In this document: one piece after another, positions 4,081 through 24,342 of the stretch
How positions within the stretch are numbered: position 1 is the first letter of the stretch
How the letters are laid out: the number at the start of each line of letters is the position of its first letter
From: an uncultured Clostridia bacterium
GTDB taxonomy: Bacteria; Bacillota_I; Bacilli_A; RF39; UBA660
Assembly (NCBI GenBank): GCA_946619755.1
Contig: CAMOMI010000008.1
Location: 1-33,035 of the forward strand
Direction: 5' to 3'
Length of the DNA stretch: 33,035 bases
Position numbers and translations under genes: made by a program
Notes under the pieces: generated by a model
The model's input: only the letters and a program-made list of their open reading frames with translations
Told to the model about the DNA's origin: nothing
The model's database searches: none

Positions 4081-4638
4081 ATGAAAAAAATTGGAGGATT
4101 TCTTTTAGATATAGTAATTGGTGCTTGGCTAATTTTGGCGATTTTTGTTACTATTTGTCTGCTTTCTTATAACGAATTTGCTGTTTCAACATTTGGCAAG
4201 ACTTCGATGATTATTATTGATAGTGATGAAATGGAACCTGATTTTTTAGAAGGCGATTTACTTTTAGTAAAGAGAAATAGCGATAATAAGATAAATGTTG
4301 GTGATAAAGTTTTTTATTACAATAGTGCTATGAATAGTAGCGTGTTAATTTATTTAGATACGATTCAGTCAAAGGAATCTGTAACAAGGGACGAAACAAC
4401 ATATTTAATTGATGGTCGCAAGGTATCTGGTGAATATGTCATTGGAAAAGCAGATAGGGCTAAGGTGATCCATAAAGTAGGTACTTTCTTACAAATATTT
4501 ACATCTAGATGGGGATTTATGTTTTTAGTAATTTTTCCAACCTTATTTGCAATTATTTATGAAATAATGTTAATTGTAGAGGCTTCTAGAGAGGCTAAGA
4601 TTAACGCTTTAAGAGAAAAAGAAGCACTACAAGAATAA
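4081..4638 (+). CDS. Signal peptidase S26B-like protein lacking catalytic residues
   Basis: This 185-residue protein has the architecture of a SipW-type (S26B) signal peptidase: an N-terminal membrane segment (about 8-29), an extracytoplasmic domain, a C-terminal membrane segment (about 145-166) and a short charged tail. The family motif SGSMxP reads SDEMEP here (48-53), so the nucleophile Ser is replaced by Glu50. The THR motif carrying the catalytic His in the two paralogues at 5229 and 11292 is absent. The only His in the protein is His131, outside that position. Other family features remain (GD after the motif, an IGK segment near 121). I infer a catalytically inactive paralogue, perhaps a chaperone, adaptor or regulator of its active relatives. 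It is the first gene of the operon, and the next gene follows after 12 bases. Confidence 0.75.
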   Translation: MKKIGGFLLDIVIGAWLILAIFVTICLLSYNEFAVSTFGKTSMIIIDSDEMEPDFLEGDLLLVKRNSDNKINVGDKVFYYNSAMNSSVLIYLDTIQSKESVTRDETTYLIDGRKVSGEYVIGKADRAKVIHKVGTFLQIFTSRWGFMFLVIFPTLFAIIYEIMLIVEASREAKINALREKEALQE

Positions 4639-4650
4639 TGTGGCGATATA

Positions 4651-5205
4651 ATGAAAAATAGGATTGTTGTTATATCGTTGGTTATTGTATTGCTTTTGAT
4701 GCTATTAATTGTCGACACATATGCTTTGTTTGAAACAAATGGTTCTGGAATAAAGGATTTGGATATTGCTAATTGGATAATTAAAGTAAATAATGTAAAT
4801 GTTTCCCAAAGCGATACAGTTACATTAAGTAATTTTACTTATAGTACAACAACTCATACTGAGAATGGTTATTTTGCACCAGGGATGAGTGCAATGTTTG
4901 ATGTTGAAATTGATGCGTCAGAAGCTGAAGTATCTGTAGCTTATGATCTAGTGATAGACGATACAAATATAGAGGCTTATCCGAATATGCATTTTAGCGT
5001 AAAAAATATGAATACAAATGAAACAATTAACGAAAATGAATATAATGGAGTAATTTTACTTAACGATAGTAATCGAGTAGTTACTTTGAGAATTATACTT
5101 GAGTGGGATGATATACTAGAATATGATGATTCAGATACTACTCTAAATGGTTCAGAATTAGAATTTACAATTGATGCTAATTTTGAACAATATCTAGGAG
5201 AATAA
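4651..5205 (+). CDS. Secreted TasA/camelysin-like protein with SipW-type signal peptide
   Basis: This is a 184-residue exported protein. A hydrophobic signal (about 5-21) ends at DTYALF (22-27), the SipW-type cleavage pattern seen in TasA/camelysin relatives. IANWIIKVN follows a short linker, like the IARWAFTVN of the minus-strand gene at 12648, and the C-terminal parts also resemble each other (WDD/WLDG, a Ser/Asp/Thr-rich turn, then a strand ending in FEQ or FIQ). The rest looks like a beta-sandwich, with no cysteine and no sorting motif. GTGGCGATATA precedes the ATG. It lies between the inactive and the active signal peptidase paralogues, which supports the view that it is their substrate. 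Fibre subunit function is inferred from TasA. Confidence 0.78.
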   Translation: MKNRIVVISLVIVLLLMLLIVDTYALFETNGSGIKDLDIANWIIKVNNVNVSQSDTVTLSNFTYSTTTHTENGYFAPGMSAMFDVEIDASEAEVSVAYDLVIDDTNIEAYPNMHFSVKNMNTNETINENEYNGVILLNDSNRVVTLRIILEWDDILEYDDSDTTLNGSELEFTIDANFEQYLGE

Positions 5206-5228
5206 AAAGGAAAAAAGTGAGGTGTGAT

Positions 5229-6101
5229 ATGAGCCGCCTAAAAAGAATTATAAAAATAGTTGTAAATATTTTTACATATATTTTGTTAGTAATTTTAATT
5301 TTAGTTATATATGGCAAGTTAGTTATTACTTTTGGTAATAATGTTTATCCAAATTATTTTGGGTATACTTTTTTTGAAGTAGCTAGCGGTTCAATGAGAC
5401 CGACACTTGAAATAAATGACGTAATTATTGTTAAAATAACAAAAGATAATTTAAATAAAGGTGATGTGATTGCTTTTCAAGGCGATGAGGCAATAATAAC
5501 ACATAGAATTTTATATATTGATGGTAACATTCTTACGGTTAAAGGAGATAACAATGATGTTGTTGATAAACCAATATCTGTAGACCAGGTTATTGGAAAA
5601 GTGGTTAAGATTGTGCCAAAACTTGGGGTATGGAAGAAAGTAATTACAGAACCAAAGATACTAATTGCTATCTTTATAACACTATTATTATTTGATTTTG
5701 CTATTTCTTATAATGGAAATGATAGAAAAAAGGTTGCTAAAGAAATTTCAAAAAAAGAAGAAAAATCAGAGAAACTTGCTAAAGAAATAGTTAAAGAAGA
5801 AATTTTGGTATCTGATATAAAAAAGGATAAGAAGCATAATGTTACAGAATCTGATAAATTACTTGAATTAACTAGAAAAATAGATATTGATGAAATTAAT
5901 AGATTACTAGAAGGAACTGACTATAAGTTAGAAAAGAAGGAAATTAATAATTTAAAAAAAGAAATTAGTAAGATTGAGAATAAACAAGAAAATGAAGAAA
6001 TAGTTCCTGATTTGGGAGATAAAGAAAAGAAATTTGTTGAATATACAATGAGACTAGATCTTAATGAAATTCAAAAGAAAATTGATAGTAAGTTAAAGTA
6101 G
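5229..6101 (+). CDS. Active SipW-like signal peptidase I (S26B) with long coiled-coil cytoplasmic tail
   Basis: This 290-residue signal peptidase has an N-terminal membrane segment (about 12-33), the SGSMRP motif with nucleophile Ser55, the THRI motif with catalytic His92, a KGDNNDVVD stretch, and a second membrane segment (about 140-158). The Ser/His pair is typical of the S26B branch (SipW, archaeal and ER peptidases). It would cleave the signal peptides of the TasA-like proteins around it. Unusually, about 130 Lys/Glu-rich residues follow the second membrane segment. They are predicted to be cytoplasmic and helical, and roughly double the usual SipW length. The start is ATG 5229, with GAGGTGTGAT directly upstream; the frame also opens at GTG 5217, which lies before this site. 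Confidence 0.88.
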   Translation: MSRLKRIIKIVVNIFTYILLVILILVIYGKLVITFGNNVYPNYFGYTFFEVASGSMRPTLEINDVIIVKITKDNLNKGDVIAFQGDEAIITHRILYIDGNILTVKGDNNDVVDKPISVDQVIGKVVKIVPKLGVWKKVITEPKILIAIFITLLLFDFAISYNGNDRKKVAKEISKKEEKSEKLAKEIVKEEILVSDIKKDKKHNVTESDKLLELTRKIDIDEINRLLEGTDYKLEKKEINNLKKEISKIENKQENEEIVPDLGDKEKKFVEYTMRLDLNEIQKKIDSKLK

Positions 6102-6108
6102 GTGTACT

Positions 6109-6705
6109 ATGGAAGGAATAAAAAGAATACTTAAAAATATTAATATGCGTGATTTTAAATATTATATATTCTTTTCTATTCTGTTAATTGTTACTTTAAT
6201 TGCTTTTAGTACATTTAGGTTTACACAAGCAAGATATGAAAGCAATATAGCGGTTAATGTTAATCCGAGTTTGGCTTTCTTAATTGTTGATGTTACAAAT
6301 CAAAGCGGTCAAATTAAACTAGAAGGTATGGTACCAAGAAATGAACCTTATTTGTTTGCTTTTGATGTCTCAAATTTTTCGCAAACAAAACATGCTAATG
6401 TCGATTTGACTTATTCAATAGAGATTATTACGACAACAAATATGCCCTTAGAGTTTAAAATATTTAAGGGAAATGATATGGAACAAAATGAAATTGATGC
6501 TGATACGACAACAACCGATGAAAATGGTGTATATTATAGGCATTTAGTTATTAATGATGTTTCGGTTATGAATTATGCTAATGATGTTACAGATACATAT
6601 ACACTTTGGGTAAGTTTTCCAATTGAATATAAGAATAATCCTGATGATTATGCTGGTATTATCGATTTAGTTGATATAAAGATAAGTGCAGAACAGGTTG
6701 TGTAA
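6109..6705 (+). CDS. Secreted protein with SipW-type signal peptide, TasA-like
   Basis: This 198-residue exported protein has a charged N-terminus, a membrane segment (about 18-35) and FTQARYES (38-45) as the likely SipW-type processing site. The mature part is beta-rich and free of cysteine. It ends with a strand pattern (YTLWVSFPIEY, then YAG and DLVDIKISAEQ) resembling the end of the gene at 11962. The length fits the TasA/camelysin group. It starts 7 bases after the active peptidase with a GGTGTACT site and is followed immediately by the next exported protein, so it is part of the same operon. A fibre or pilus-like subunit is the best guess; no closer family was recognised. Confidence 0.72.
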   Translation: MEGIKRILKNINMRDFKYYIFFSILLIVTLIAFSTFRFTQARYESNIAVNVNPSLAFLIVDVTNQSGQIKLEGMVPRNEPYLFAFDVSNFSQTKHANVDLTYSIEIITTTNMPLEFKIFKGNDMEQNEIDADTTTTDENGVYYRHLVINDVSVMNYANDVTDTYTLWVSFPIEYKNNPDDYAGIIDLVDIKISAEQVV

Positions 6706-6706
6706 T

Positions 6707-7633
6707 ATGAAGAAAAAGTTAAAAAAAATATCTTATAAAGAGTTAATAATTATGGTGATTTTACTTGTTATTATTTCTTTAGGAACTGTAACATTAGCTA
6801 AGTATGTTATTAGAGAATTTCATAGTTATTATTTGGACGCTAAACATTTTTACTTTACGAGTAATCGACTAAAGAAAAATAATCCAACTTATTTAGTAAA
6901 TAATTGGTCAGGTGTTGGTTCATTTAATATTTCTTTTGATTTATTATCTATGAAAAATAGCTTAGTTTATACCGATTATGATATTCCTTATACGGTTACA
7001 TTTACTTGCCCATCTGACGTTAGTTGTTCTTTGGATAAGCAGGCGGGCACAGTACTAAGTTCTAATGCTAATCATTCAGATACGGTAACATTATCTGTAA
7101 GTCCAACGAGAAGCTATGCGGAAAATGAAAGATTACAAGTATATGTTGAAGCCAGTAGTACTTCACCTTATGTTGAAACTATTGGAGCATATTTTGAATA
7201 TGTTGTTGGTAAACAGGGAGTTACATATAATATTGAAGATGAAGCTAATCGCACTTACTTAGTACTTAAAATAACAAATGCGATAAATTATTGTAAAGTT
7301 ATTGCTGATTTTGATAATTATCATGTTAATGATTTAATTGAAAGTAATGTGTATCGTGGTTTATCTGCCGAAAATAGAGCTAAATGCGTTGGAGAAGGGG
7401 TGCAACTTGACTTTGATCCAAACGTATTAAGACTTGATACAACTAGTAATATAATGGATGTGTCCACATATGCTAATACGACAATATCAGGCGTAGATTA
7501 TATTAATAGACTTAATTTTTATATTGAACCGGTTAGTACAATGGCTATTAAGTTTTATAAGATTAATACGGCAAATAATTATACTTACCCAATTACAAAT
7601 AATAGTAGTATTGTTACAGTAACATTTAGTTAG
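6707..7633 (+). CDS. Larger SipW-type secreted protein
   Basis: This is a 308-residue exported protein. The signal region has a Lys-rich start, a hydrophobic stretch (about 13-30) and LAKYVIRE (30-37), a SipW-type end. HFYFTSN follows soon after. The mature region is beta-rich with Thr/Ser-rich strands. It has one close Cys pair near 102-107 (CPSDVSC) and two more Cys about 65 and 80 residues before the C-terminus, so disulfides are possible. I chose ATG 6707, one base after the previous stop; the frame extends to a GTG at 6686 inside that gene, but AGGTTGTG at 6695-6702 fits the ATG better. It is about 100 residues longer than its neighbours and may be a tip, adaptor or anchor subunit. That role is inference. 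Confidence 0.68.
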   Translation: MKKKLKKISYKELIIMVILLVIISLGTVTLAKYVIREFHSYYLDAKHFYFTSNRLKKNNPTYLVNNWSGVGSFNISFDLLSMKNSLVYTDYDIPYTVTFTCPSDVSCSLDKQAGTVLSSNANHSDTVTLSVSPTRSYAENERLQVYVEASSTSPYVETIGAYFEYVVGKQGVTYNIEDEANRTYLVLKITNAINYCKVIADFDNYHVNDLIESNVYRGLSAENRAKCVGEGVQLDFDPNVLRLDTTSNIMDVSTYANTTISGVDYINRLNFYIEPVSTMAIKFYKINTANNYTYPITNNSSIVTVTFS

Positions 7634-7647
7634 TAGGAGATGTTTTT

Positions 7648-8625
7648 ATGGATTACAATATCGTTAATATATATATAGAATATATCAAGAAAAAATATTT
7701 AGAATTATTTAAAATATTATTAAGAGGTAAATATCAAAAAGAGATGTGTTTACCTTTTGTTGAAAGATATATTAATGTAAGATATTACAATGAAACTAAT
7801 TATTTACCAATTAAAGACTTTTTAAACAGAATTAATCGTGAATTAGTCGATTTGGTTAATGTTTTAGCTAATGATGAGAATTTAGATGATCTTAAGAATA
7901 TTGTAGCTTTATTTGGATATATAGTTTATTTTGATGACGTAGCTGAGGTTACTAACGATATGGAATTAATTGATACATTAGTAGAAGATGATATTATTAG
8001 AATAAGTAATAAACAGGAATGTAAAAGCGAACTTAAGGAATGGTATATCGATTTTAAGAAAGATAAAGAAAAATTTCATAGTTCACTTTTAACAAAAGAT
8101 TTTAATTTACTTGAAGATAGATTATATCGTAAGTTATATTATTTAGTATTAGAACATAACGTTAAAATTTCTAATCTATATAGTGAATATGCGGTAGAAA
8201 AAGCTTATAATAGTGGTACAATTGGTGAAGATAAGTTATTTATTACCTATATTTTGGCATCTAATTTGGTTTTGGATAATGCCATTAAATTAGATTTTTC
8301 AAGATATTATATGGTATCGTTTGCAAGTACGCTATTTGAGAAGGAAAAGAAATGTGCTAGATTACTTAATGTGCTTAATAATCCTTTGACAAAGAAGTTT
8401 GTTTCAATTAGAATTACTTATACTGACTATAAGAATAATAAGAATAATATTGATAAACTTATTAATGAAGGATATTCTTTTGGACTTGAACTGGATTCTA
8501 AATATACGGGAGAGACAAGAGAATTGGTATTATTTCCTTATATACTTGTAAAAGAAGATAGTGAAGAATATACAATGTTATCACGTGAGAAACATTTGTT
8601 AAAGTCAAAGATAATTAAAATCTAG
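7648..8625 (+). CDS. Unknown helical cytosolic protein linked to the McrB-like ATPase
   Basis: This 325-residue protein has no signal peptide and no membrane segment. It is rich in Lys, Leu, Asp and Tyr and looks mainly alpha-helical, with a beta-containing C-terminal part (about 245-310). I do not recognise the family. A faint similarity of the C-terminal part to degenerate EAL domains was considered but is too weak to name. It lies 14 bases after the exported protein at 6707 (TAGGAGAT site) and 9 bases before the McrB-like ATPase, which suggests coordinated expression and a shared job with the next two genes. Confidence 0.6.
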   Translation: MDYNIVNIYIEYIKKKYLELFKILLRGKYQKEMCLPFVERYINVRYYNETNYLPIKDFLNRINRELVDLVNVLANDENLDDLKNIVALFGYIVYFDDVAEVTNDMELIDTLVEDDIIRISNKQECKSELKEWYIDFKKDKEKFHSSLLTKDFNLLEDRLYRKLYYLVLEHNVKISNLYSEYAVEKAYNSGTIGEDKLFITYILASNLVLDNAIKLDFSRYYMVSFASTLFEKEKKCARLLNVLNNPLTKKFVSIRITYTDYKNNKNNIDKLINEGYSFGLELDSKYTGETRELVLFPYILVKEDSEEYTMLSREKHLLKSKIIKI

Positions 8626-8634
8626 GAGGTTCTT

Positions 8635-10164
8635 ATGGATACATTTTTGAGATTTTTATATGAGTTTTTATCACAATTTTTTAATGGTATTAAATATATT
8701 GTTTTAGGTATTTTTAATGGGTTTAAATCAATTTTTAATATTCCAGAATACATTAAAGTAATAAGTGAATATAAAAATGATTTTTCAATACCTGAGTGGT
8801 TACTTGTTGGAATAGCTATTTTAATTACAATTGCGCTGCTTGCTTTAATTATTTTTGCTGTATATTTCTTGATTAGAAAATATATTAGGATTAGAAAAAG
8901 TTTAGTAGAACAGGAATCATTGTTAGAGGAAGTTAGTACTTTAAATAATGAAGTAGCAAAACTAGTTAAAGAAAAAGAAACTATTCTTGCTATGAAAGTT
9001 TCTAAATTAGGTATTAAACCAGATGAACCTGATACGGTAGAGGCTAGTGAAACTGGGGATACTGATAATGTTGATCCTAATACGGAAATCAGATTTCCTA
9101 AGTTATATGAAGTTGATCAAAAATATAAAGATTATAAAGTACAGAATTATGGTAATACTTTTGAACTACCAGAGTTTGTTGAATTGTTTAGAAACTTTGC
9201 AGCTAGTCAGTTAAAGTTATATTATACAACTGATATGATTAGATTATTTGTATCAGCATTGGCTTCAACTAAACTTGTTATCTTGCAAGGTATTTCTGGT
9301 ACTGGTAAAACTTCCCTTGCTTATGCTTGGGGAAAGTTTTTGAAGCATGACTCTTGTATTGCTTCTGTGCAACCTTCTTGGCGTGATCGTACCGAATTAT
9401 TTGGGTACTTTAATGAGTTTACGAAAAAGTTTAACGAAACAGAAGTATTAAAAGAGATGTATGTGGCAGGTTATACCGATGATGTTTATACGGTAATTTT
9501 GGATGAAATGAATATCTCACGTGTTGAGTACTATTTTGCTGAAATGTTATCAATACTTGAGATGCCTAACAAGGACGAATGGATTGTTGAAATTGTTCCT
9601 AGTGCTTGGAAGAGTGACCCTGTTCATTTAATTGAAGGTAAATTAAAGATACCACCAAATATGTGGTATATTGGAACAATTAATAACGATGACTCAACTT
9701 TTATGGTTACAGATAAGGTTTATGACCGTGCTATGCCAATCGATATTAATGATAAAGGACAAGTGTTTGAGCCAGAATCAATTCCAGCTCAAGATATTAA
9801 CTATTCTTATTTGGATAGTAAGTTCCAAGAAGCAATTAAAAATAATCCTATTCATGAGGAAAATCTTAAAAAGATTGAAGAAATGGATGATTATGTTATT
9901 AAACATTTTAGAATTGCTTTTGGTAACAGAATTGTGGCACATATGAGAAAATTTGTGCCAGTATTTGTAGCGTGTGGGGGAGATGAAATAAGAGGAATTG
10001 ATTATTTCATTGCACGTAAGATTTTAAGAAAATTTGAACAATTAAATATTGCTTATATTAGAGATGAAATTGATGGCTTTGTTAAATTCTTAAATGATAA
10101 TTTTGGTGAAGGTAAAATGTCAGAATGTATTGAATATTTATTAAGACTTAAGAAGATGGCGTAG
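8635..10164 (+). CDS. Membrane-anchored McrB-like AAA+ ATPase
   Basis: This 509-residue protein has an amphipathic N-terminus, a strong membrane segment (about 56-82), a coiled-coil stretch (about 85-122), an acidic linker, and a C-terminal AAA+ domain of the McrB group. The Walker A motif is GISGTGKTS (218-226). The Walker B motif is VILDEMN (287-293), followed by SRVEYYFAEML as in McrB relatives. The sensor-type GTINNDDS and a DRAMPIDI segment follow. Classical McrB is a cytosolic GTPase that drives restriction of modified DNA; this one is tethered to the membrane and lacks a DNA-binding N-domain. The site is AGGAGG. It sits between the unknown gene at 7648 and the DUF2357-like gene at 10175, inside a secretion operon. 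An ATP-driven remodelling role at the membrane is inferred. Confidence 0.85.
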   Translation: MDTFLRFLYEFLSQFFNGIKYIVLGIFNGFKSIFNIPEYIKVISEYKNDFSIPEWLLVGIAILITIALLALIIFAVYFLIRKYIRIRKSLVEQESLLEEVSTLNNEVAKLVKEKETILAMKVSKLGIKPDEPDTVEASETGDTDNVDPNTEIRFPKLYEVDQKYKDYKVQNYGNTFELPEFVELFRNFAASQLKLYYTTDMIRLFVSALASTKLVILQGISGTGKTSLAYAWGKFLKHDSCIASVQPSWRDRTELFGYFNEFTKKFNETEVLKEMYVAGYTDDVYTVILDEMNISRVEYYFAEMLSILEMPNKDEWIVEIVPSAWKSDPVHLIEGKLKIPPNMWYIGTINNDDSTFMVTDKVYDRAMPIDINDKGQVFEPESIPAQDINYSYLDSKFQEAIKNNPIHEENLKKIEEMDDYVIKHFRIAFGNRIVAHMRKFVPVFVACGGDEIRGIDYFIARKILRKFEQLNIAYIRDEIDGFVKFLNDNFGEGKMSECIEYLLRLKKMA

Positions 10165-10174
10165 GTGATATTAT

Positions 10175-11281
10175 ATGGATGATCTTAAAGTTACAGAGTT
10201 ACTTAATACAGTAAGTGAGAAGAATAAGACAAAATTTAAAGATAATATTCGTTCTAACTTAACAGTTAATACTGATATAAAAAGAGTAGACGCAGATTTT
10301 GAATGGTTAGAACTTATGGAGGATACAATTAAGTATCTGGATAACATTTTAAGAAATCCAAATAGATTTATTGTTAATGAAGAGGAAATTGTTAAGGTTG
10401 AACTTGCTAGAAGAATAACAGTTGAAAGTATTAGACATTTGTCTAAACATACTAATTTTATTCAAAAAATTGAAGATAATGGTGATGTTAAACCATCAAA
10501 GATATTGAATATTCAAAAAGATGAAAGTTATGATACTTATGAAAATAGATTAATTTATACACTTATTGAAAATATGCGTAACTTTGTTGAAATTAAAAAG
10601 AAAAGTTTAATTTCTGCATCAAGCTTAAATGATGTTAAAAAAGCTAAATATAGTGCTAAAAGTAATATTGGTAAAGAACAAGTTTTTATTGAAATGAACT
10701 ATACTTCTAGTTTAGCTGAAAAAAAAGAAGTTCAAGGAGAATATCCAGTTGATGAACGTATTAAGAGATTAGATGATGATATAACTATGCTTATGAATAC
10801 GGATGTTTATAAAACATTAAGAAAATTGCATGTAGCAAGAGTTATACCGCCAATTAAAAAGACAAATGTAATTTTAAAGAATACAAACTTCCAGTATGCA
10901 ATGAAACTTTGGGATTATTTACAAGCACACGTTGCCAATGATACGAAAATATTTAAAAGTAATAAGAAATACGAGGATAATGGTATATTAAAAGAATACA
11001 TGAATAATACTTTCTTACTTGATTATCTTGCAATGAATACGCTTAGTAACGTTGATAGTAAAGAAAAAGAGTCACAGGTAATTGAAGAAATTACAGATAA
11101 TCTATTGCAACGTATTGTTGAATTAAATGTTGATATGCCTCTTACAACGTTAAAAGAAAAAATTGGTGATAAAATAGCTATTATTAAGTATAAAAAAGAA
11201 GCTAGTTTATCAGAAATTCAAAATATTTTTTCTGAACATATAAAAAATTATTTGGAAAAGGTAGAGAATATAAAACTATAG
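10175..11281 (+). CDS. DUF2357/McrC-like partner of the AAA+ ATPase, no nuclease motif seen
   Basis: This 368-residue soluble protein is mostly helical. The segment SYDTYENRLIYTLI (118-131) matches the ENR signature of DUF2357 proteins, which resemble the N-terminal part of McrC. A later block, KNTNFQYAMKLWDYLQ, matches the usual 'NxxYxxALxLWxxL' pattern of that family. McrC proteins normally end in a PD-(D/E)XK nuclease domain. I see no D...ExK core in the last 100 residues, and the protein ends soon after the DUF2357-like part. It lies 10 bases after the ATPase with a GGTGATATT site, so the two are very probably partners. The family match rests on motifs read by eye. Confidence 0.65.
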   Translation: MDDLKVTELLNTVSEKNKTKFKDNIRSNLTVNTDIKRVDADFEWLELMEDTIKYLDNILRNPNRFIVNEEEIVKVELARRITVESIRHLSKHTNFIQKIEDNGDVKPSKILNIQKDESYDTYENRLIYTLIENMRNFVEIKKKSLISASSLNDVKKAKYSAKSNIGKEQVFIEMNYTSSLAEKKEVQGEYPVDERIKRLDDDITMLMNTDVYKTLRKLHVARVIPPIKKTNVILKNTNFQYAMKLWDYLQAHVANDTKIFKSNKKYEDNGILKEYMNNTFLLDYLAMNTLSNVDSKEKESQVIEEITDNLLQRIVELNVDMPLTTLKEKIGDKIAIIKYKKEASLSEIQNIFSEHIKNYLEKVENIKL

Positions 11282-11291
11282 GTGATGTTTA

Positions 11292-12002
11292 ATGAAGATT
11301 ATTTTTAAAATCTTTAAATGGATTATAACGGCATTTTTGTTTGTTGTATTAGCTATTGTTGTCTTTCAGAAATTTACGAATAATCGTGTTGCACTTGGAA
11401 ATATTTATATATTTCAAGTTGTATCAGAAAGTATGCTTCCTGAATACCGAGTAGGTGATATTATCGTTGTTAAAAAAACAACAGCTGATAAATTGAAAAT
11501 TGGTGATGATGTTACTTATCTTGGATCAGTTAGTAATTTTGATGGCCTAACAATCACTCACAGAATAATTGATATTCGTGAAGAAAATGGAAAACGTTAT
11601 TTTACTACTAAAGGTATGTCTAATTTTATTGAAGATCCAGAAATAAGTGAAGATAATATCTATGGTAAAGTAATATATCATACGGTATTATTTAGTTTTG
11701 TTGGTAGACTTATGACTAATATGATTGTTTACTATGTATTGTTTGTATCGGTTGGTGTTAGTTTTTCTTATGAGTTAATAACGTCTTTCTTTTTAAAAAA
11801 AGATGATGAAGAAGAAGATGATGATGGTGGTGATACTTCGTCTAAAGATGAAGAACCAGAATTAGATAATAATATATATACGAACGACGTAGAAATAAAT
11901 GAAAAAGAAAAAAATGACGAAGTCATTATTGAAGAAGATATAATTGAAGAGGTTGATAGCGATGATGGAGATGAAACCGAAGGTGAGCAAACCGAAAACT
12001 AA
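11292..12002 (+). CDS. Second active SipW-like signal peptidase I (S26B) with acidic tail
   Basis: This is a 236-residue S26B signal peptidase. It has an N-terminal membrane segment (about 8-27), the SESMLP motif with Ser47, the THRI motif with His90, and a second membrane segment (about 140-165). Both catalytic residues are present. After the second membrane segment come about 65 residues dominated by Asp and Glu, predicted to be cytoplasmic. The start has GGTGATGTTTA upstream and lies 10 bases after the DUF2357-like gene. The 3' end overlaps the next gene, a secreted TasA-like protein, by about 40 bases, so enzyme and likely substrate are translated together. Confidence 0.88.
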   Translation: MKIIFKIFKWIITAFLFVVLAIVVFQKFTNNRVALGNIYIFQVVSESMLPEYRVGDIIVVKKTTADKLKIGDDVTYLGSVSNFDGLTITHRIIDIREENGKRYFTTKGMSNFIEDPEISEDNIYGKVIYHTVLFSFVGRLMTNMIVYYVLFVSVGVSFSYELITSFFLKKDDEEEDDDGGDTSSKDEEPELDNNIYTNDVEINEKEKNDEVIIEEDIIEEVDSDDGDETEGEQTEN

Positions 12003-12606
12003 TTTGCTCAAACCAGCGAGAATTATCTTTTTAATTGTTTTGATTGCTTCAAATACATTTGCGTGGTTTATTTATGCAACACGTATTGATAGTAATGTAT
12101 CAGTACATGTTCGAGCGTGGAATGTTATATTTGAAGCTGGCGAAAATGAGGTAACTGATATGATTAATTTAGATGTTGATAGTATCTACCCTGGTATGGA
12201 AAATTATGAGTATGTTATAAACGCTTATAATCGTGGAGATGTATCAGCAACACTTTCATATCAAATTCTTAGTGCCACTATATTAGATCAGTCTTTTATT
12301 ACTGTCGAAGGCAGACAAGCACTTGGTCAAGAACCTGTGGCAACCGATTTAACGACTGAACAATTAAAAAATAAGTTATTAAATGATTATCCTTTTTCAA
12401 TTGGTATTACAATTTCGAATGGTTTAATTGAAGAAGAGAATGGAAAAGAGACATATACATTGAGTGTTATATGGCCATATGAAAATAATCATGATGATAT
12501 TGATACGCAATGGGGTATAAATGCATACGAATTTAAGGAAGCACATCCTGATAGTCCTAGTATTACGCTTAAAGTAAAGATTATTATTACACAAAATTTA
12601 GAATAA
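11962..12606 (+). CDS. Secreted TasA-like protein with SipW-type signal peptide
   Basis: This 214-residue exported protein begins with a basic stretch, then a hydrophobic segment (about 21-36) ending in NTFAWF, a SipW-type pattern close to the TYAWF of the gene at 14227. The mature part is beta-rich with no Cys. Near the end, VIWPYENNHDDIDTQWG resembles TasA/camelysin C-terminal regions. The start is ATG 11962, placed 8 bases after AGAGGT; ATG 11965 or 11971 are alternatives, and the frame opens further up at a TTG (11944) without a site. It overlaps the preceding signal peptidase gene in another frame. A bidirectional terminator closes the operon here. Confidence 0.76.
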   Translation: MMEMKPKVSKPKTNLLKPARIIFLIVLIASNTFAWFIYATRIDSNVSVHVRAWNVIFEAGENEVTDMINLDVDSIYPGMENYEYVINAYNRGDVSATLSYQILSATILDQSFITVEGRQALGQEPVATDLTTEQLKNKLLNDYPFSIGITISNGLIEEENGKETYTLSVIWPYENNHDDIDTQWGINAYEFKEAHPDSPSITLKVKIIITQNLE

Positions 12607-12643
12607 AAATAGGCTTAGTATTATTATTAACGAGGCCTATTTT
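12606..12643. terminator. Bidirectional terminator between convergent genes
   Basis: A 9-bp stem, AAAATAGGC (12606-12614) with GCCTATTTT (12635-12643), has A and T runs on both flanks. It can stop transcription from the plus-strand operon and from the minus-strand gene ending at 12648. Confidence 0.8.
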
Positions 12644-12647
12644 ATTT

Positions 12648-13253
12648 TTAATTTGAATTAGGTTTTTGAATAAATCTTATATTAACTTTAATGCTAGCAA
12701 CACCATTAATTGAAGCTTCTGTATCATCGGCATTATTCATTGTTTCACCAGTACCGTCTAACCATTTTATATAAAATTTGTATGTATTGACTGTTTTTTC
12801 TTCACCTAACAAATGCGTGGTAGTGATGCTGCTGGTTGATTCATCATTGATAGGGATCAGTTCTCCGTCATTTTTTTTGTATCCAGTAAAAACTATATCG
12901 GTAACTGTATTAGTACTGTTTTTTTCTAAAGATATTTCTTCATCAAAAGATACGCCCACATTTGATGAATCAATTTTTATTTCAAAGAATCCAGTGCTTG
13001 TCGGAGCAATGACATCACTACCTATATTGGGGTTTTCATCAAATACAGGAACAATAGTATTTGAAAAATCTTGATTATTTATAATATCTTGTTGATTTAC
13101 TGTAAAGGCCCATCTAGCTATTGTAAAATTACTGCTAGCATCAGCACTGGAGATATATTTAGCATAAGTATCTTGTACTAAATCTACTAAAAGAAATAGT
13201 GAGATTGCCGCTAATAATAATCTAAATTTTCGATTATTAATTATTTTATCCAT
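12648..13253 (-). CDS. TasA-like secreted protein with SipW-type signal, encoded in reverse
   Basis: This 201-residue exported protein has a hydrophobic signal (about 10-27) ending in DTYAKY (28-33), then NFTIARWAFTVN, a very typical SipW-dependent start of a TasA/camelysin domain. The mature region is beta-rich with no Cys. The C-terminal layout resembles the gene at 4651. The site is AGGAGGAAG before the ATG at 13253. It is the only minus-strand gene in the island. It is bounded by a bidirectional terminator and a 243-base divergent intergenic region, so it is controlled independently of its neighbours. It could be an alternative or minor fibre subunit. Confidence 0.8.
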   Translation of the reverse strand: MDKIINNRKFRLLLAAISLFLLVDLVQDTYAKYISSADASSNFTIARWAFTVNQQDIINNQDFSNTIVPVFDENPNIGSDVIAPTSTGFFEIKIDSSNVGVSFDEEISLEKNSTNTVTDIVFTGYKKNDGELIPINDESTSSITTTHLLGEEKTVNTYKFYIKWLDGTGETMNNADDTEASINGVASIKVNIRFIQKPNSN

Positions 13254-13269
13254 GCTCTTCCTCCTTTAC

Positions 13270-13286
13270 TTTATACCATAATTATA
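13270..13286 (-). promoter_or_regulatory. Candidate -10 region for the minus-strand TasA-like gene
   Basis: On the minus strand a perfect TATAAT lies at 13286-13281 and an extended TGGTATAAA at 13278-13270, just upstream of the AGGAGG site. The first gives the more reasonable leader. No good -35 is visible. Either or both may be used. Confidence 0.4.
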
Positions 13287-13328
13287 AATGATATTTTTAT
13301 TTTATTTATCTAAAAGAAGGTGATTATT

Positions 13329-13351
13329 TGTAAATTGACGCATAATTTACA
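13329..13351. promoter_or_regulatory. Perfect inverted repeat in divergent intergenic region (possible operator)
   Basis: TGTAAATT (13329-13336) and AATTTACA (13344-13351) form a perfect 8-bp inverted repeat around a 7-base centre. It lies between the minus-strand gene starting at 13253 and the plus-strand gene starting at 13497, upstream of candidate promoters for both. The form suits a dimeric regulator. It is not followed by a T run, so it is not a terminator. The binding protein is unknown. Confidence 0.4.
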
Positions 13352-13418
13352 TATTTCTACATTTTTTTAATATTTGTTTAGTGATATGTATAATTTGTCG
13401 AATTCTATAAAATATATC

Positions 13419-13447
13419 TTGCTTTTTTAAAGAAAATCGTTTATTAT
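13419..13447 (+). promoter_or_regulatory. Candidate promoter for the 13497-15240 operon
   Basis: TTGCTT (13419-13424), a 17-base spacer and TATTAT (13442-13447) fit a vegetative sigma promoter. A second possible -10, TATAAT at 13389-13394, lies further upstream. The ribosome binding site GGTGGTGAT precedes the ATG at 13497. Confidence 0.45.
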
Positions 13448-13496
13448 ATTATTGTATGATACGAAGAGTAGTCATATGCATGTTTGGTGGTGATTT

Positions 13497-14210
13497 ATGG
13501 CCAAAGAGGTAATTGTTACTGCTGATAAAGTAAGGAAAAGAAAGAAAATTAGCCGTGTGGTTAGACGTTCCTTACTTATATTGCTAATATTTTTAGTTCT
13601 ATTATACATAATCTTAGATGTCATTTATAGTGAGGGAAGATTTACAGTAACATTAGATTCTAATAAAACACTTGAAAGTGGATTAGCAATATTTGATAGT
13701 CTTAACAATTCTCATGGTAAAAGGAAATTAGAAGCTACACCGATAAAGTTTATGGATAATATATCTTATAAATGGATTCCTGAGAATGTTGATACTGAAG
13801 CAGAAGGGTCACATAATGGTCAAAATTATATCGCATACACTTTCTTTGTTGAAAATCAAGGAAATAGAGTTATTAATTATCATTATGAGGTAATTGTCGA
13901 TGATATTATTAAAAATGTCGATGAGGCAATTAGAATCAAAATTTATCGTAATGGTGAATCAAAAACTTATGCGAAACGTAATTTTATCGATAATGAACCT
14001 GAAAGAGATACGATTCCATTTAAGGATATTGAAAATGCAGAAGGAACAATTATTCTTGAAAAAGTATCTGATTTTAAACCAGATGATTTGGATAGAATAA
14101 CCGTTCTTGTTTGGCTTGAAGGTGATGATCCTGATTGTACTGATGCCTTAATTGGTGGAGAACTAAAAATGCATATGGTTATTACTGAAGAACATATTGA
14201 TCAAAGTTAG
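13497..14210 (+). CDS. Membrane-anchored extracellular protein related to the fibre subunits
   Basis: This 237-residue protein has a strongly basic N-terminus (KVRKRKKISRVVRRS), one membrane segment (about 27-44) and an extracellular domain of about 190 residues. Unlike its neighbours it has no SipW-type cleavage pattern after the hydrophobic stretch, so it probably stays anchored. Near the end, VWLEGDDPDC matches MWIEGQDIDC in the next gene, which suggests a shared C-terminal strand or partner surface. It is separated by 16 bases from the major secreted protein at 14227 and has its own promoter region. A plausible role is a membrane base or assembly platform for that subunit; this is inference. 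Confidence 0.62.
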   Translation: MAKEVIVTADKVRKRKKISRVVRRSLLILLIFLVLLYIILDVIYSEGRFTVTLDSNKTLESGLAIFDSLNNSHGKRKLEATPIKFMDNISYKWIPENVDTEAEGSHNGQNYIAYTFFVENQGNRVINYHYEVIVDDIIKNVDEAIRIKIYRNGESKTYAKRNFIDNEPERDTIPFKDIENAEGTIILEKVSDFKPDDLDRITVLVWLEGDDPDCTDALIGGELKMHMVITEEHIDQS

Positions 14211-14226
14211 GAGTGATTTATAAAAA

Positions 14227-15240
14227 ATGGCAAAGAAAAGCAAAAAGCAAGAAAAGAAAAAATTAAGAACATTAATTTTGTTATTGTTTTTAACAATTAT
14301 AATGTTTGGAACATCAACTTATGCATGGTTTACTGCTAATAGAATGGTAACCATTAATTCGTTAGATGTACATGTTGAAGCTACTGGTGGTATTCAGATA
14401 TCTACTGATGCTGCAGCATGGAAATCAGTTATTACAAATAATGATATTAATACCGGTTATAGTGGACATAAAAATATTGTTCCACCTAATGTAACAGCCG
14501 TATCAACTGATGGTAAGGTAGATGCAACAAATGGTACTTTAAATTTGTATAAATCTATTATTGGTAATGATGCAACTGACGGATCTTATAATATTAAGAC
14601 TGAATTAGAAACTGAGACTGCTGCTAGTACTACAGCTGGAGACTTTATTGCATTTGATGTATTTCTTCGTGTTGATGAAGAAAAACAAATTTATTTAACA
14701 AGCGACTCAAAGGTTGTTAAAAAAGGCGATGATGCTGATAAAGGATTAAAGAATGCTGCTCGTGTTGGTTTCGTTATGTTAGGACATACTGCATCTACTG
14801 CTACTTCTGCAGCAATGATTGCAGCAAGTGATTTATTAAATTCTTCTTCAAAAGCAATTATTTGGGAACCAAATTATGATACTCATTCAGAGTTAGTTAC
14901 TTCTCAAGTTGCTACTGAGTATGGTGTAACATTAAATACAAGTGGTCCAACTGCATATTGTGGTGTTAATAAGGCTATTACAGCACCAGTTTCTTTAAAG
15001 AACTTAGTTAATTGTACTGATACAACTAATGCAACTGCTGTAACACCAAATATTACTACTACTGCTGCTAATACTGATTATAAACAAGCATTTGTTTTAC
15101 AACCTGGAGTTACAAAAGTACGTGTTTATATGTGGATTGAAGGACAAGATATTGATTGTGAAAACAATGCTACTGGTTCTGATATTTCATATACAGTTCA
15201 ATTAAGTACTGAATCATCTGCTACTGGAACTGGAAATTAA
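14227..15240 (+). CDS. Thr/Ala-rich secreted subunit with SipW-type signal (possible major fibre subunit)
   Basis: This 337-residue exported protein has a Lys-rich start, a hydrophobic stretch (about 14-29) ending in TSTYAWF (29-35), then TANRMVTINSLDVHVEATGG, a classical SipW/TasA-type mature start. The mature protein is unusually rich in Thr, Ala and Ser. It has three Cys, one in MWIEGQDIDC near the C-terminus. This signature is shared with the anchored protein just upstream. Codons for Ala, Thr and Val are mostly the GCT/ACT/GTT type, and a strong terminator follows at once. Both suggest high expression, so it may be the main fibre subunit. The AGGAGTGAT site overlaps the end of the previous gene. 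Confidence 0.78.
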   Translation: MAKKSKKQEKKKLRTLILLLFLTIIMFGTSTYAWFTANRMVTINSLDVHVEATGGIQISTDAAAWKSVITNNDINTGYSGHKNIVPPNVTAVSTDGKVDATNGTLNLYKSIIGNDATDGSYNIKTELETETAASTTAGDFIAFDVFLRVDEEKQIYLTSDSKVVKKGDDADKGLKNAARVGFVMLGHTASTATSAAMIAASDLLNSSSKAIIWEPNYDTHSELVTSQVATEYGVTLNTSGPTAYCGVNKAITAPVSLKNLVNCTDTTNATAVTPNITTTAANTDYKQAFVLQPGVTKVRVYMWIEGQDIDCENNATGSDISYTVQLSTESSATGTGN

Positions 15241-15250
15241 TATGATTTTT

Positions 15251-15281
15251 AAAGATTTAGATTAATTCTAAATCTTTTTTT
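15251..15281 (+). terminator. Intrinsic terminator after the Thr/Ala-rich subunit gene
   Basis: An 11-bp perfect stem, AAAGATTTAGA (15251-15261) with TCTAAATCTTT (15267-15277), has a 5-base loop and is followed by a T run. It separates the fibre genes from the giant surface-protein operon. Confidence 0.88.
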
Positions 15282-15337
15282 AATAGTTAATTTTCTTTAT
15301 TTTTTTATATATATATCTTTAAAAAACACCTTATTTA

Positions 15338-15346
15338 TGTTATACT
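15338..15346 (+). promoter_or_regulatory. Extended -10 promoter of the giant surface-protein operon
   Basis: TG-T-TATACT lies about 20 bases before the ribosome binding site TAGGAG of the giant gene. The -35 region has only T and A runs. With the terminator just upstream, this defines the start of the 15369-27224 unit. Confidence 0.55.
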
Positions 15347-15368
15347 ATTCATAGTAGGAGAGTAGGCG

Positions 15369-18300
15369 TTGGATATGCAGTTAAAAGAATTAATTAAACA
15401 ACATAAAGTTTTTTTATTAGCAGTAATATCTATTATTGTTATTATTTTGACGTGGACTTTTATTAATTCTTTTAGTGAAGATGTAGATGATTCAGCTTGG
15501 GATGGAATAGCAGCCAATAGCTTCACAAGTGGTACAGGTACTACTGATAATCCTTTTATAATATCAAATGCTTCTGAGTATGCTTATTTTAAATCCTTAC
15601 TTGAAAGCGCCGATGCTTCAATGTATATAGATAAACACTATAGTTTAGCAGATAGCTTTAATTATGGTGAATATGATTTAAGTATTAATAATGAAATTCC
15701 ATTTAGCGGAACGTTAGATGGTAATGGTCATATGATTTACAATTCTAATATGACAAAACCAATATTTAATGAAATTAAAGATGCAACAATTAAAAATCTT
15801 AATTTAAATAATTTAACTATTACTGCTAATTCTGATATAGGAGTTTTAGCAAATAGTATTGAAAATAGTAAATTACTATTTGTTATTTTTAATGGCGTTA
15901 TTTCTAGAAGTGAAAGTAATTCTACTGATGTTGTGGTGTCTGGTATTTCTTCTATAATAAAGAGTACTGAAATTGATAAGGTGATTGTTAATTATGATGC
16001 ATCTGATGAAGTGGTATACTATTCTTTAGGTAATGAAATAACAGACATTTCTTTGAAAAATGTGCTAGTACGAAACGATTATAATAATTATCCTGATACA
16101 CTGGATGTTGATGATAATGGATTATATGAGTTTTCATTAAATGATGATAATATTTCTGTTGATAAAGAAGTTTTAAATAATTTTATTAATGATGAATATA
16201 AAATTAAACTTGAAAATAATATCTTTAACATCGTTTCTTTAGAAGAAACTTTAAATGAAAGTAAAAAAAATAATGTTCCTAGAAGGAGTGCCGCGATTAA
16301 TTTACATGATTCTGGAATAGATACAACTAATGGAATAATATATATAAATGATTTAACAATCGATGAAAATTACTATAAGGGTCTTAATTATACAAAGATT
16401 AGTAATACAAATGGAACTATTCCTGATGGAAGTAATCAAAATATATATAGTGATAGTAATTTAGTAAAAGTTTATATTCATTATACTGGAGCAGATATTA
16501 ATGATAATGAGGTATATGGAACAGTTAGTGTTGATGAACAGATAAAGGATTATTATTATTATAAAATATATCCTGTTGTTAATGGTTATGTTACTTTTGA
16601 TTTAATAGATAGTCCTTGGGCTAATCGCCCTTCAGATAGAGCATTTAATGGATGGGTAACTGATGATGAAAATGCTATTATTTCGCTTGATATGGATACT
16701 TATACAAGAAGTGTAAAAATACCAGTTAGTGATGTTTCAAATCCAATTTCTATAACTTTTTATTCTAGTTGGACAACTGCAACAGTTGTTACTTCTACCA
16801 ATAATTTAAATAATTTAAAGTCAGTTGGTATGACAGCTTTATCTTCTTCGTATGGTGATTTAACAATTTACTATATTCGTGGAACAGTTAATAATAATAA
16901 TAGATATCCAAATTCAAATGATTTATATGATTTGGATGGAAATAAAATTACTGGAAACTCTTATTGTCGTACATCAGGAGGGTGCACTTATTTATATCGT
17001 AATACAAGTAATACATATAGTTCTAGTACAACATATTACAAAGTAACTCCAAATGGCAATAATCCTGCTACTGTAGAAATTGTTAGTCCTCAAAGAAGAG
17101 CCATTTCATATTATGAGAGTGGTAAGGCTGCTGGGTATTTTGTAAGAGTAACTAGTGGTAGTGACAATATTTATTCACAATATGGTGTTAAAATGGATAG
17201 TTGTACAAGTGGTACATGTTATAAGTTACTTCAATATAGTGATGGCGATTTAGATCCTAATACAACTTATTATTATTTAACTACAAGAGATACGAATATA
17301 TTTGTACCAGCTTCAAATTCTACTAATACAAGTAATATTTCAGTTACAAGACCGATGACAATTACGGGTATTAATAATGGCACTGATAATAGTTCTAGTA
17401 GACGTATTCAGCTTAATAATAACTGGACACTTGACGCTGATTTAAGAGTTGAGTTTATAACGTTTTATGTTGATTCTACAACTACTGATGTATCTAATTT
17501 TAATAGTGGTAATTATTATTATAAAATAATTGGAGACTTTAATAATTTAAAATTAGGTCGTGGGTTAAAAAGATATACAAATAATGGTAATACATATCTT
17601 ACAGCCACATCTTTTGTTGGGGGTTCAACTAGTTCTGCAACATCACTTGCTCGTTATTCTTTAATTGTTGAATCTGGCTTTTATCAAAACGGATCTGGGG
17701 TAGGCTACAATAGTGCGACAACTCATAGGGTTAATAGTTATGTTACCTTGGGTAGTGATTATGATCGTATTGATAAAAATAATAGTAGTTTAATTGTTTA
17801 TTATTGTTATGCAGGATCATGGGCATCTAATTTGTATAATGGTTCTTCATCTGATAATACATACGATTTTCCATCAATTACAACGACTATTAAAAGCGGT
17901 ACATTTGGTGAAAACGAAGAAGATTATGCTGCTGGTGTTTACGTTGGTGGTAGAGGCAGCGGTACTCATTATTCACTTCGTATGATGATTGTTGAGGGTG
18001 GAGAAATCTTTAACTTAATTGGTGGCCCAATGTCAGATGATGACAGAGCTTCTAAAAATGATATTATTATTAATGTTAAAGATGGAAATATTAATATGTT
18101 ATTTGGCGGAGCTGGTGTATCTAATACTGTTGGTAATCGTATTATTAGTATTACTGGTGGAACAATAAATTATGGTGTGCTATGTGGTTCTAATGCTTAT
18201 AATCGTGGTAATAATTCATCTAATCCATTTGGTAAAATTGATGGTGACACATTGTTATATATTGGTGGTGATGTTACTGTTGGTACAAAAGACGATTCAC

Positions 18301-21300
18301 TTTATAATATTTCTTCAGGTGATGTTTTTGGAGCTGGTAATGGCCGTGATGGAGAATTAGATGTCGGTTCTGTTAATAACTCAAATGTAATTATCGACAG
18401 AGGTGCCAAAATAAAAGGTAATGTTTATGGCGGCGGAAATTTTGGAGCAGTTGGAGGAAGTGCAGTTGGTACTAGCGGATCAGCTGTTACTAATTCTGGA
18501 GTATATGAAGATGCAACTACTGACAATAATATTCGTTATTTTGGCTCTAATCCTGATAACTATATTCAATTTAATGGCGAAATTTATCGAATTGTTGGTT
18601 TGTTTAATAATGTAAGTACAAATAATGGTAATAAAAATTTGGTGCGTATTATTAAAAATACTTCTTTAGGTAATCGTGCTTGGGGTGATACAAATTCTAG
18701 TACTGTTCAGACAAATACTTCTACTGAAACAAGCGAAGGAATTTTTGAAGATAATACTTATAATTATACTAACTATTACAAAAATTATTATAATTTTTAT
18801 GTTAAAAATGATAATGCAACATCTAATCTTTATAATTACTTAAATACAACATACTATAATGGCTTAAATAATACTTATAAAAATTACATTGAAGAAGTTA
18901 CTTGGGGTCTTGGGGCAACTAATGGTATTGATCAAACGGCAAGTCAATTTTATACAGCAGAAAGAGGTAATGGTGTAGTTAACTATTTAACCGGTGTTAA
19001 TCAAACAAGCAATGGTTCTTCTTTAAGTTCAGCATCATTTAAAGTTGGTTTATTCTATCCATCAGATTATGGTTTTGCTAATAAAGATACTACCTGTTTA
19101 GGTACAAATCTAGGTAGTTATACATCAAGTTGTACTGATAATAACTGGATGAGTGGTATGACGAATGCTTGGACTATTACACCTTCGACAGATGTTTATA
19201 ATGTTACTAAAACTTATCAAGTAAATAGAACTGGTGGTATTTGGTCAGGATACACTTATACAATGAATCGTTATTATCATGTTGTTAATCGTAATTTTAT
19301 TATAAATGCTAATAATGCCCTTGCGCTTAGAGATATTTATTATACAAATAATGATAATGATGCTAATAACTATTACAATACTAATGCTGTATATCCTTCT
19401 TTCTATTTAAAAGATAATGTAACAATTGTTTCTGGTACAGGTACTCAAAGTGATCCATATATTATTGGTGAATCTGATGATAAATTAACCGACATAGTGT
19501 ATGAGATAATGCACCCACCAGTTGTTGAACCTGGTAACTTAGTTCATGATGAAAGTGAATATAACGCTCGTACTAATATTAAAATTCTTGGTGGTACAAT
19601 TTCTGGTTCTGTTTTTGGAGCTGGTAATAGTAACGGAGCAGGTAATAACACTAATAATGCGATTGCTCTTTCAAAAATTAATATTGATATGTTAGGTGGA
19701 ACAGTTAATGGTAGCATTTATGGTGGCGCTAATTCCGAAGGTAGAGTATATGGTGATGTTTTTGTCAATGTTATAAATGGTGAAGTAAAACAATCCGTTT
19801 ATGGTGGTGGCAAGGGTGGATATGTCGACGAAGATAATGAAGGAACTTACGTTTCTGATAATGTTAGTGTAAAAATTGGCGACAATACGACAACTGATTT
19901 AAAAATTAAAGGAAATGTCTATGGCGGTTCAGCATTTGGAACAGTAAATGCTCTTGATGAGGAAACAACAACTTCACAATATAGTACTAGTGTTACAGTT
20001 AATGCTGGTGTTATTACTGGTAGTGTCTTTGGCGGCGGTCAAGGAAACGATACTTATACTCCTAAAGTTGTTGGTGGTATTACTACGACAATTAATGGTG
20101 GTGATATGACATCAGTTTTTGGTGGAAATGACCAAGCTGGGGTACACACTGAAGCAAATTATGTATATTTAAATGGTGGAGTTATTGGTAGTGTGTATGG
20201 TGGCGGTAATAAATCTAGTGTTACGAATACTCATGTATATCAAGATGGCGCTACTGTTACGAACTTATATGGCGGTTCAAATAGCTTGGGTGATGTATCA
20301 AGTACTGATGTTAAGATTAGACATGGTAGTGTAGGAAACGTATATGGTGGAAATAATGAAGGTGGAACATGTTCTGTTACTAATGTTTTAGTAGAAGGAG
20401 ATGCAACAGTTTTATCTAGTGTGTATGGTGGTGGAAATCAAGTTGATACTGTTACAACTAATATAACTTTAAATTCAGCAAATTCTTCAATTGCTAACGT
20501 ATTTGGTGGTGGAAATAACGCTAGTGTTACAACTTCAAATATAACTGAAAATGGTGTAACAGTTGGTAATATGTTTGGTGGTTCTAATTCTACTGGAACG
20601 GTTACAACTTCAAATATTAATTATAATAATGGAACAACTACAAGTGTTTTTGGAGGCAATAATGCTGGTGGTAACACTTTAACAGCTAATGTTAATATTG
20701 CTGGTGGTACAATTACAACCTTATATGGTGGTGGTAACCAAGCTAATGGTGATATTTCAAATATTACAGTGACTGGTGGTACTTGCACAACTATTTTTGG
20801 TGGCGGTAATAGTGCAGGCTTATCTGAATCACATGTAACAATTACGAGTGGAACTGCTACAGATATATATGGTGGTTCTAATAACAATGGAAAAGTTTTA
20901 GAAACTGAAATAATTGTTAATAATACTTCTTCAGTAATTAATAATATATATGGTGGTGGAAATAAAGCTGAAGTAGGTGATACTAATGTTATTGTTAATA
21001 ATGGTACAATTGGTAATATCTTTGGTGGAGGAAATTTAGCTCAATGTACTGGAGATACTTTGGTAGATATCAATGGTGGTACTATTAATACAAATGTTTA
21101 TGGTGGTGGAAACTTTGGCGTTGTAAAAGGTTCTTCTGAAGTAACAATTACTGATGCAACAATTAAAGGCAGTGCTTATGCTGGCGGTAATGGTAGTACA
21201 GCAACGCTTGAAGGAAATACCAATATAACCGTTGATGGTGATTCGGTTATTGGAACTAGTTCTTCGGTTTCACCAACTTCAGGTTGCGTATTTGGTGGCG

Positions 21301-24212: not shown

Positions 24213-24219
24213 GGTATTT

Positions 24220-24342
24220 ATGGAAGAAAAATTAAAGGAAATTAACAATCAAGATCTATTGCAAATTTATCGTTTGATTTTAGAACATCTAGAGTTTTTA
24301 GATAATGAAAAGAAAAAGATAGAGGAAGAGGATAATAAATGA
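24220..24342 (+). CDS. Small charged helical protein (40 residues)
   Basis: A short frame from ATG 24220 to TGA 24340-24342 encodes 40 residues, mostly Glu, Lys, Leu and Ile, predicted to be one amphipathic helix with no membrane segment. A good GTGAGGTATTT site precedes it, starting right at the stop of the giant gene. Its stop overlaps the ATG of the next gene (ATGA), and its last codons provide the AGAGGAAGAGG site of that gene. It could be a real small partner protein or a leader that couples translation of the downstream gene. I do not recognise a family. Confidence 0.6.
   Translation: MEEKLKEINNQDLLQIYRLILEHLEFLDNEKKKIEEEDNK

Follow-up and report, generated by a model that had tools for sequence, protein, structure and literature searches.

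The window analysed here, a 33,035-nucleotide AT-rich contig (CAMOMI010000008.1, GenBank assembly GCA_946619755.1) from the incomplete genome of an uncultured Clostridia bacterium (G000, 827 kb, 76% complete), carries an island of 15 genes across 4081-25862, 14 on the + strand and one on the - strand, in which a McrB-like AAA+ nucleoside triphosphatase (NTPase) lies among S26B signal peptidase homologues and proteins with SipW-type signal segments. At its core, the genes SPc, X325, the NTPase, a DUF2357 partner and the peptidase S26c follow one another with successive gaps of 14, 9, 10 and 10 bases, a measurement in agreement with the spacing of 9-14 bases given for a three-gene block in an initial annotation of this DNA. 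The locus was compared with seven relatives (six of the same family and one of another family of the class) and with 80 loci from named genomes; the counts given are over 84 distinct loci, or 89 records once duplicates are included, many of them cut by contig ends. It is real, conserved and widespread, and its type already bears a name, CoCoPALM (Bell et al. 2024, PMC11090510).

Composition of the block and its proposed cargo

The NTPase (8635-10164, +) has Escherichia coli McrB as its best solved relative (6hz4, E 1e-4), and the product of the next gene (10175-11281, +) matches DUF2357, a McrC N-terminal-like family (PF09823, 4.9e-11); both members of the pair recognised in the initial annotation were hence recovered. 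Walker A, the DE pair of Walker B, the N-x-D-D motif and R365 are invariant among 143 NTPase sequences, from which the enzyme should turn over nucleoside triphosphate (NTP). The stretch N350-x-D352-D353, present in 143/143 sequences, fits the NxD signature of CoCoPALM, and because the same letters also fit NxxD, the motif alone is no clade separator. Read directly, the N-terminus holds a hydrophobic segment at about 55-80 and a conserved heptad-like stretch at 88-125, to which Pfam FtsL gives sub-threshold matches only (0.08-0.17); no Pfam domain, and so no modified-base-binding domain, was found in this membrane segment and coil.

The DUF2357 family is matched by all 50 partner proteins and a nuclease family by none (0/50), and a PD-(D/E)xK nuclease, sought on this McrC-like partner, was not found, there being no invariant acidic residue beyond Trp246. 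The protein has 368 amino acids in the window and 514-767, with long extensions, in distant loci. A match of the DUF2357 profile to the designed protein 8uzp (E 9e-4) was taken as a chance helical match.

X325 (7648-8625, +), an adaptor-like protein of 325 amino acids belonging to no known family, was modelled with AlphaFold2 at a predicted local distance difference test (pLDDT) score of 94.7. Its N-terminal half is helical, and residues 148-325 form an EAL-like domain that aligns with EAL domains over 172 residues (VIA Z 13.5, root-mean-square deviation 3.3 Å). Given that the EAL, DDFG and EITE motifs occur in 0/79 X325 sequences, this C-terminal part is predicted to be a degenerate EAL domain devoid of the catalytic motifs. 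In five loci (L015, L091, L093, L094 and L095), X325 is fused behind an S26 peptidase, which, if the peptidase has its normal topology, would place X325 on its cytosolic side.

Three S26B signal peptidases had been annotated, and three homologues are indeed present by NCBIfam TIGR02228, but they do not amount to three working enzymes. S26a (4081-4638, +; E 1e-10) lacks the catalytic Ser and His motifs here and in 67/67 relatives and, judged by these residues, is a catalytically dead yet conserved paralogue, a pseudo-peptidase that goes beyond what the initial annotation described. S26b (5217-6101, +; 4.5e-18) keeps the active site Ser59/His96, as do most relatives (Ser 48/52, His 48/52), and S26c (11292-12002, +; 3.3e-24), which closes the block, keeps its own (Ser 81/82 and His 82/82 among the S26 proteins after DUF2357). 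S26b further bears a tail of about 130 amino acids on the cytosolic side, ending in YTMRLDLNEI; the YTxRLDL motif was considered as a universal docking peptide and rejected, being found in just 14/44 upstream S26 proteins. Long S26b forms with this tail occur in 14 loci and other loci fuse the peptidase directly to the SPb subunit, such tail and fusion variants being noted in the window (5217-6101), L011 (7046-8188), L024 (5606-6733), L031 and L041.

The six proteins with SipW-type signals and the one anchored relative reported in the initial annotation are all present, the signal segments having been read directly from the sequence. The secreted subunits are SPa (4651-5205, +; DTYALFE), which is homologous to SPe, SPb (6109-6705, +; TQARYES), SPc (6686-7633, +; TLAKYV), which adjoins the block and is either secreted or anchored, SPd (11944-12606, +; NTFAWFIY), the β-sandwich protein SPe (12648-13253, -; DTYAKYI) and the fibre-subunit candidate TasA1 (14227-15240, +; STYAWFT); in the anchored relative, ANC (13497-14210, +), no cleavable signal was seen. 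The SipW-type signal motif is carried by 53/55 TasA1, 54/79 SPd and 52/73 SPe proteins as against 29/358 unassigned open reading frames, and TIGR04088, the SipW-cognate signal, is matched by 10/32 aligned TasA1 relatives. The TasA/CalY family PF12389 has no match in the incomplete window genome and one in the island of the relative L011, where a BsaA-family SipW-dependent biofilm matrix protein stands directly after SPd (E 3.4e-29).

When the AlphaFold2 model of SPe (pLDDT 87) was searched with Foldseek against 350,542 PDB chains, the top two matches were the archaeal bundling pilin 7ueg and the TasA fibre 8aur, with modest scores (E 1.5e-3 and 2.6e-3; VIA Z 5.9 and 6.6, respectively). Both are donor-strand fibres, and many chaperone-usher pilins were found among the further matches; on the strength of these model comparisons, a donor-strand character of the subunits is likely. 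The SPe gene is opposite in strand to the block in 65/70 copies, a conserved inversion.

The conserved unit extends past 15240 to 25862, taking in a membrane-anchored giant repeat protein of 2947 amino acids (15369-24212, +), an adhesin candidate with 18 repeats of the GG-x-N type and a match to Pfam M26_N (1.5e-8), and a protein of 507 amino acids without family (24339-25862, +), a recurrent partner seen in 25/89 loci.

Conservation and joint inheritance

The compared loci were retrieved through the NTPase and represent its best matches, so that the counts test the surroundings of the NTPase and not how often fibre loci go without it. X325 lies directly upstream of the NTPase in 80/83 of the distinct loci and the DUF2357 gene directly downstream in 83/83, an S26 peptidase is the gene right after DUF2357 in 79/82, and SipW-type genes surround the block across the compared loci. 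By record, out of 89, the counts are 79 for SPd, 78 for SPc, 69 for SPe, 65 for S26a, 62 for the giant protein, 57 each for SPa and SPb, 49 for TasA1 and 44 for ANC. In a TasA1 profile search of 37 genomes of the genus and family, strong TasA1 matches and the NTPase were found in an identical set of seven, with no strong match in the 30 genomes lacking the NTPase, a co-occurrence with a chance probability near 1e-7 if kinship is disregarded. SPe tracks the NTPase likewise at E < 1e-50, weaker SPe paralogues being found in other genomes.

The block and its SipW-type genes are a conserved unit and no chance neighbourhood. The proposal in the initial annotation that they constitute one system is supported by the same gene order in close and distant relatives and by the co-occurrence of the NTPase and TasA1 within the family. 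It is also supported by the outcome of the observations named beforehand as speaking against it: in the close and distant relatives compared, the block was found within the SipW-type locus, and neither a conserved nuclease partner nor a defence island went with it.

Further afield, the McrB-like gene was matched in 84/392 sampled genomes and 41/155 genera of the phylum, some of these matches belonging to other McrB-like groups, and the literature searched holds no published function for it. Twenty distant loci were inspected, 15 with strong and five with weak NTPase matches. In 12 of the strong loci, S26 and mostly SipW-type genes stand beside the NTPase, and a recognisable X325 is missing from the majority of these 12; the five weak matches (L166-L170) have neither S26 nor SipW-type neighbours. 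This pattern confines the link with peptidases and SipW-type proteins to the group nearest the window's NTPase, within which it is old. A tree of the NTPase domain clusters most S26-linked members, its short-flank labels being incomplete and one L161 label being a secondary match. In a divergent branch (L163, L164, L165 and L171), an NTPase of 588-614 amino acids with two N-terminal hydrophobic segments again has an S26 peptidase and SipW-type proteins as neighbours, and an ABC transporter lies close by.

Known systems, proposed mechanism and alternatives

The pairing of a McrB-like NTPase with signal peptidases, which the initial annotation set apart from the well-known tapA-sipW-tasA operon with its one peptidase and no such ATPase, was already known in outline, since Bell et al. 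2024 (PMC11090510) had named CoCoPALM. The link between McrBC and signal peptidase occupies one paragraph of their main text, in which no mechanism is given; an NxD-type McrB is described as being fused to an FtsB-like segment, the signal-peptidase proteins are regarded as likely pilus assembly factors, and further treatment is deferred to a later paper. That later paper was not found in our literature search, and a search for SipW together with McrB yielded nothing relevant beyond Bell et al. In CoCoPALM the NxD signature usually has D or E as its next residue, and the McrC homologue usually, if not always, bears a coiled coil. The window locus fits CoCoPALM in displaying the NxD signature and the signal-peptidase association, and it further resembles that system in its McrB-like NTPase with a membrane segment and a putative coiled coil at the N-terminus and in its DUF2357 partner. 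In contrast, the main text of Bell et al. does not speak of SipW-type proteins as cargo, of X325 with its EAL-like fold, of the inactive S26a, of the peptidase-X325 fusions or of the joint presence and absence of NTPase and TasA1; relative to that text, these points are added here.

With the tapA-sipW-tasA operon of Bacillus subtilis and sipW-tasA/calY of Bacillus cereus, the island shares an S26B Ser-His peptidase, SipW-type subunits and, in prediction, a subunit fold that may be near that of TasA, whereas it differs in having three S26 homologues, one of them dead, and six to seven subunits without a TasA sequence match, as well as in the addition of the NTPase, DUF2357, EAL-like and giant proteins. 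A McrB-type AAA+ domain with a DUF2357 partner in adjacent genes is likewise found in McrBC Type IV restriction and CoCoNuT systems, but the island NTPase is membrane-anchored and surrounded by fibre genes, and neither a DNA-binding domain nor a nuclease was found with it. The degenerate EAL effectors FimX, LapD and YdiV share the EAL fold with X325 (148-325), which differs from them in lacking the EAL, DDFG and EITE motifs and in its other N-terminal domain.

TasA monomers are joined through donor-strand exchange (PMC9674648), and SipW of B. cereus cuts TasA, CalY and CapP (PMC13082335). We are inclined to regard the locus, with a little more belief than doubt, as a CoCoPALM-type fibre-biogenesis locus in which an NTP-driven membrane complex controls the processing and assembly of donor-strand-type fibres. 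The pre-subunits would be exported via Sec and kept in the membrane through their signal segments. At the cytosolic face, the NTPase would form a ring, switched on by the DUF2357 protein in the way that McrC acts on McrB, a DUF2357-type domain being described as the activator of McrB in McrBC (PMC11090510). The EAL-like X325 may serve as an adaptor coupling the NTPase to the peptidases, to which it is fused in some species, such that NTP turnover could gate or order the cleavage and release of subunits, which would then join outside the cell by TasA-like donor-strand exchange. The dead S26a may hold or select substrates rather than cut them, and the giant repeat protein would be a carried adhesin. 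That the NTPase acts at the membrane, as suggested in the initial annotation, agrees with the membrane segment that it carries and with the five peptidase-adaptor fusions, and is still something that we infer. If fibre biogenesis is indeed its role, a DNA-restriction motor would now build fibres on the cell surface, and TasA-type assembly, regarded as energy-free at the cell surface, would gain an NTP-driven branch. The stronger proposal that a restriction-derived, nuclease-less NTPase ring powers the gating of SipW-type peptidases via a dead-EAL adaptor, and would be the first machine to assemble TasA-like donor-strand fibres at the expense of NTP, is put forward tentatively, and we doubt it more than we believe it.

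Several observations weigh against fibre biogenesis. The TasA fibres described so far are not known to depend on an NTPase of their own. Sequence profiles of SPd, SPe and TasA1 matched no solved TasA in the PDB, and the modest resemblance of the SPe model could reflect a general β-sandwich. In two loci the island is reduced to NTPase, DUF2357, giant protein and SPa, with neither S26 nor X325 nearby (L090 and L092), and in a sister group, the other three of the 15 distant loci with strong matches, paired membrane-anchored McrB-like NTPases flank the DUF2357 gene (L161 6755-12597, L162 6627-12659 and L172 7374-11595) and are followed by membrane proteins of 950-1700 amino acids, a clear signal peptidase not being seen; the latter is possibly a related display system with other cargo. 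These loci without a clear S26 raise the prospect that the giant protein, in place of the fibre subunits, is the cargo. The NTPase complex would then mainly serve membrane insertion, folding or surface display of the giant repeat protein, the SipW-type proteins and peptidases being accessory, which would also suit the recovery of that protein in 62/89 loci despite the contig ends. Against it stand the S26 gene that follows DUF2357 immediately in 79/82 loci, the S26-X325 fusions and several loci that have no giant protein within reach, and we consider it unlikely, albeit the least so of the alternatives.

Elsewhere among bacteria, FimX and LapD regulate pili and the release of adhesins, and the EAL fold that X325 shares with them would befit a regulatory module in which the block responds to signals from the envelope or from nucleotides, its degenerate EAL domain reading cyclic di-GMP (c-di-GMP), and acts as a switch for the fibre operon, no mechanical work being done on the cargo; SipW has itself been reported to be bifunctional in regulation, according to work cited in PMC13082335. 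This is distinctly improbable in view of the absence of all EAL signature motifs from X325, of the lone GGDEF match, of about 680 amino acids and thus probably the c-di-AMP enzyme GdpP, in genomes G011 and G014 (93-96% complete), and of an Rfam search of six loci in which no riboswitch family was matched. Control by c-di-GMP is unsupported by either the GGDEF or the Rfam search. Slightly less probable again is a defence function, of the Type IV restriction-like or abortive-infection kind and tied to the envelope, in which McrB/DUF2357 would detect phage, with the surface proteins or the peptidases serving as effector. The adjacency of a McrB-like domain to DUF2357, a match of the NTPase to the PADLOC candidate PDC-M26A (8e-34) and the AbiD and PD-(D/E)XK candidate genes in the window flanks all speak for it. 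None of the 50 DUF2357 partners has a nuclease, however, the flanking defence genes recur in 0/88 other loci, and the fibre genes are inherited together with the block; the PDC-M26A match was rejected as evidence since it is unspecific, extending to every McrB-like relative tested whether S26 is present or not. By the features tested, the locus is no restriction system.

Flanking genes and occurrence

The seven flanking genes tested, encoding YqeG, YqeH, AbiD, HtrA, a 452-aa protein, PD-(D/E)XK and LysM, were found in 0/88 other loci. The AbiD-like gene lies at 1780-2733 (PADLOC 1.8e-55) and the PD-(D/E)XK candidate defence gene at 27708-28793 (PDC-S26, 9.5e-14), both being absent from the other loci checked. 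Close relatives occur among rumen and gut Bacilli assemblies.

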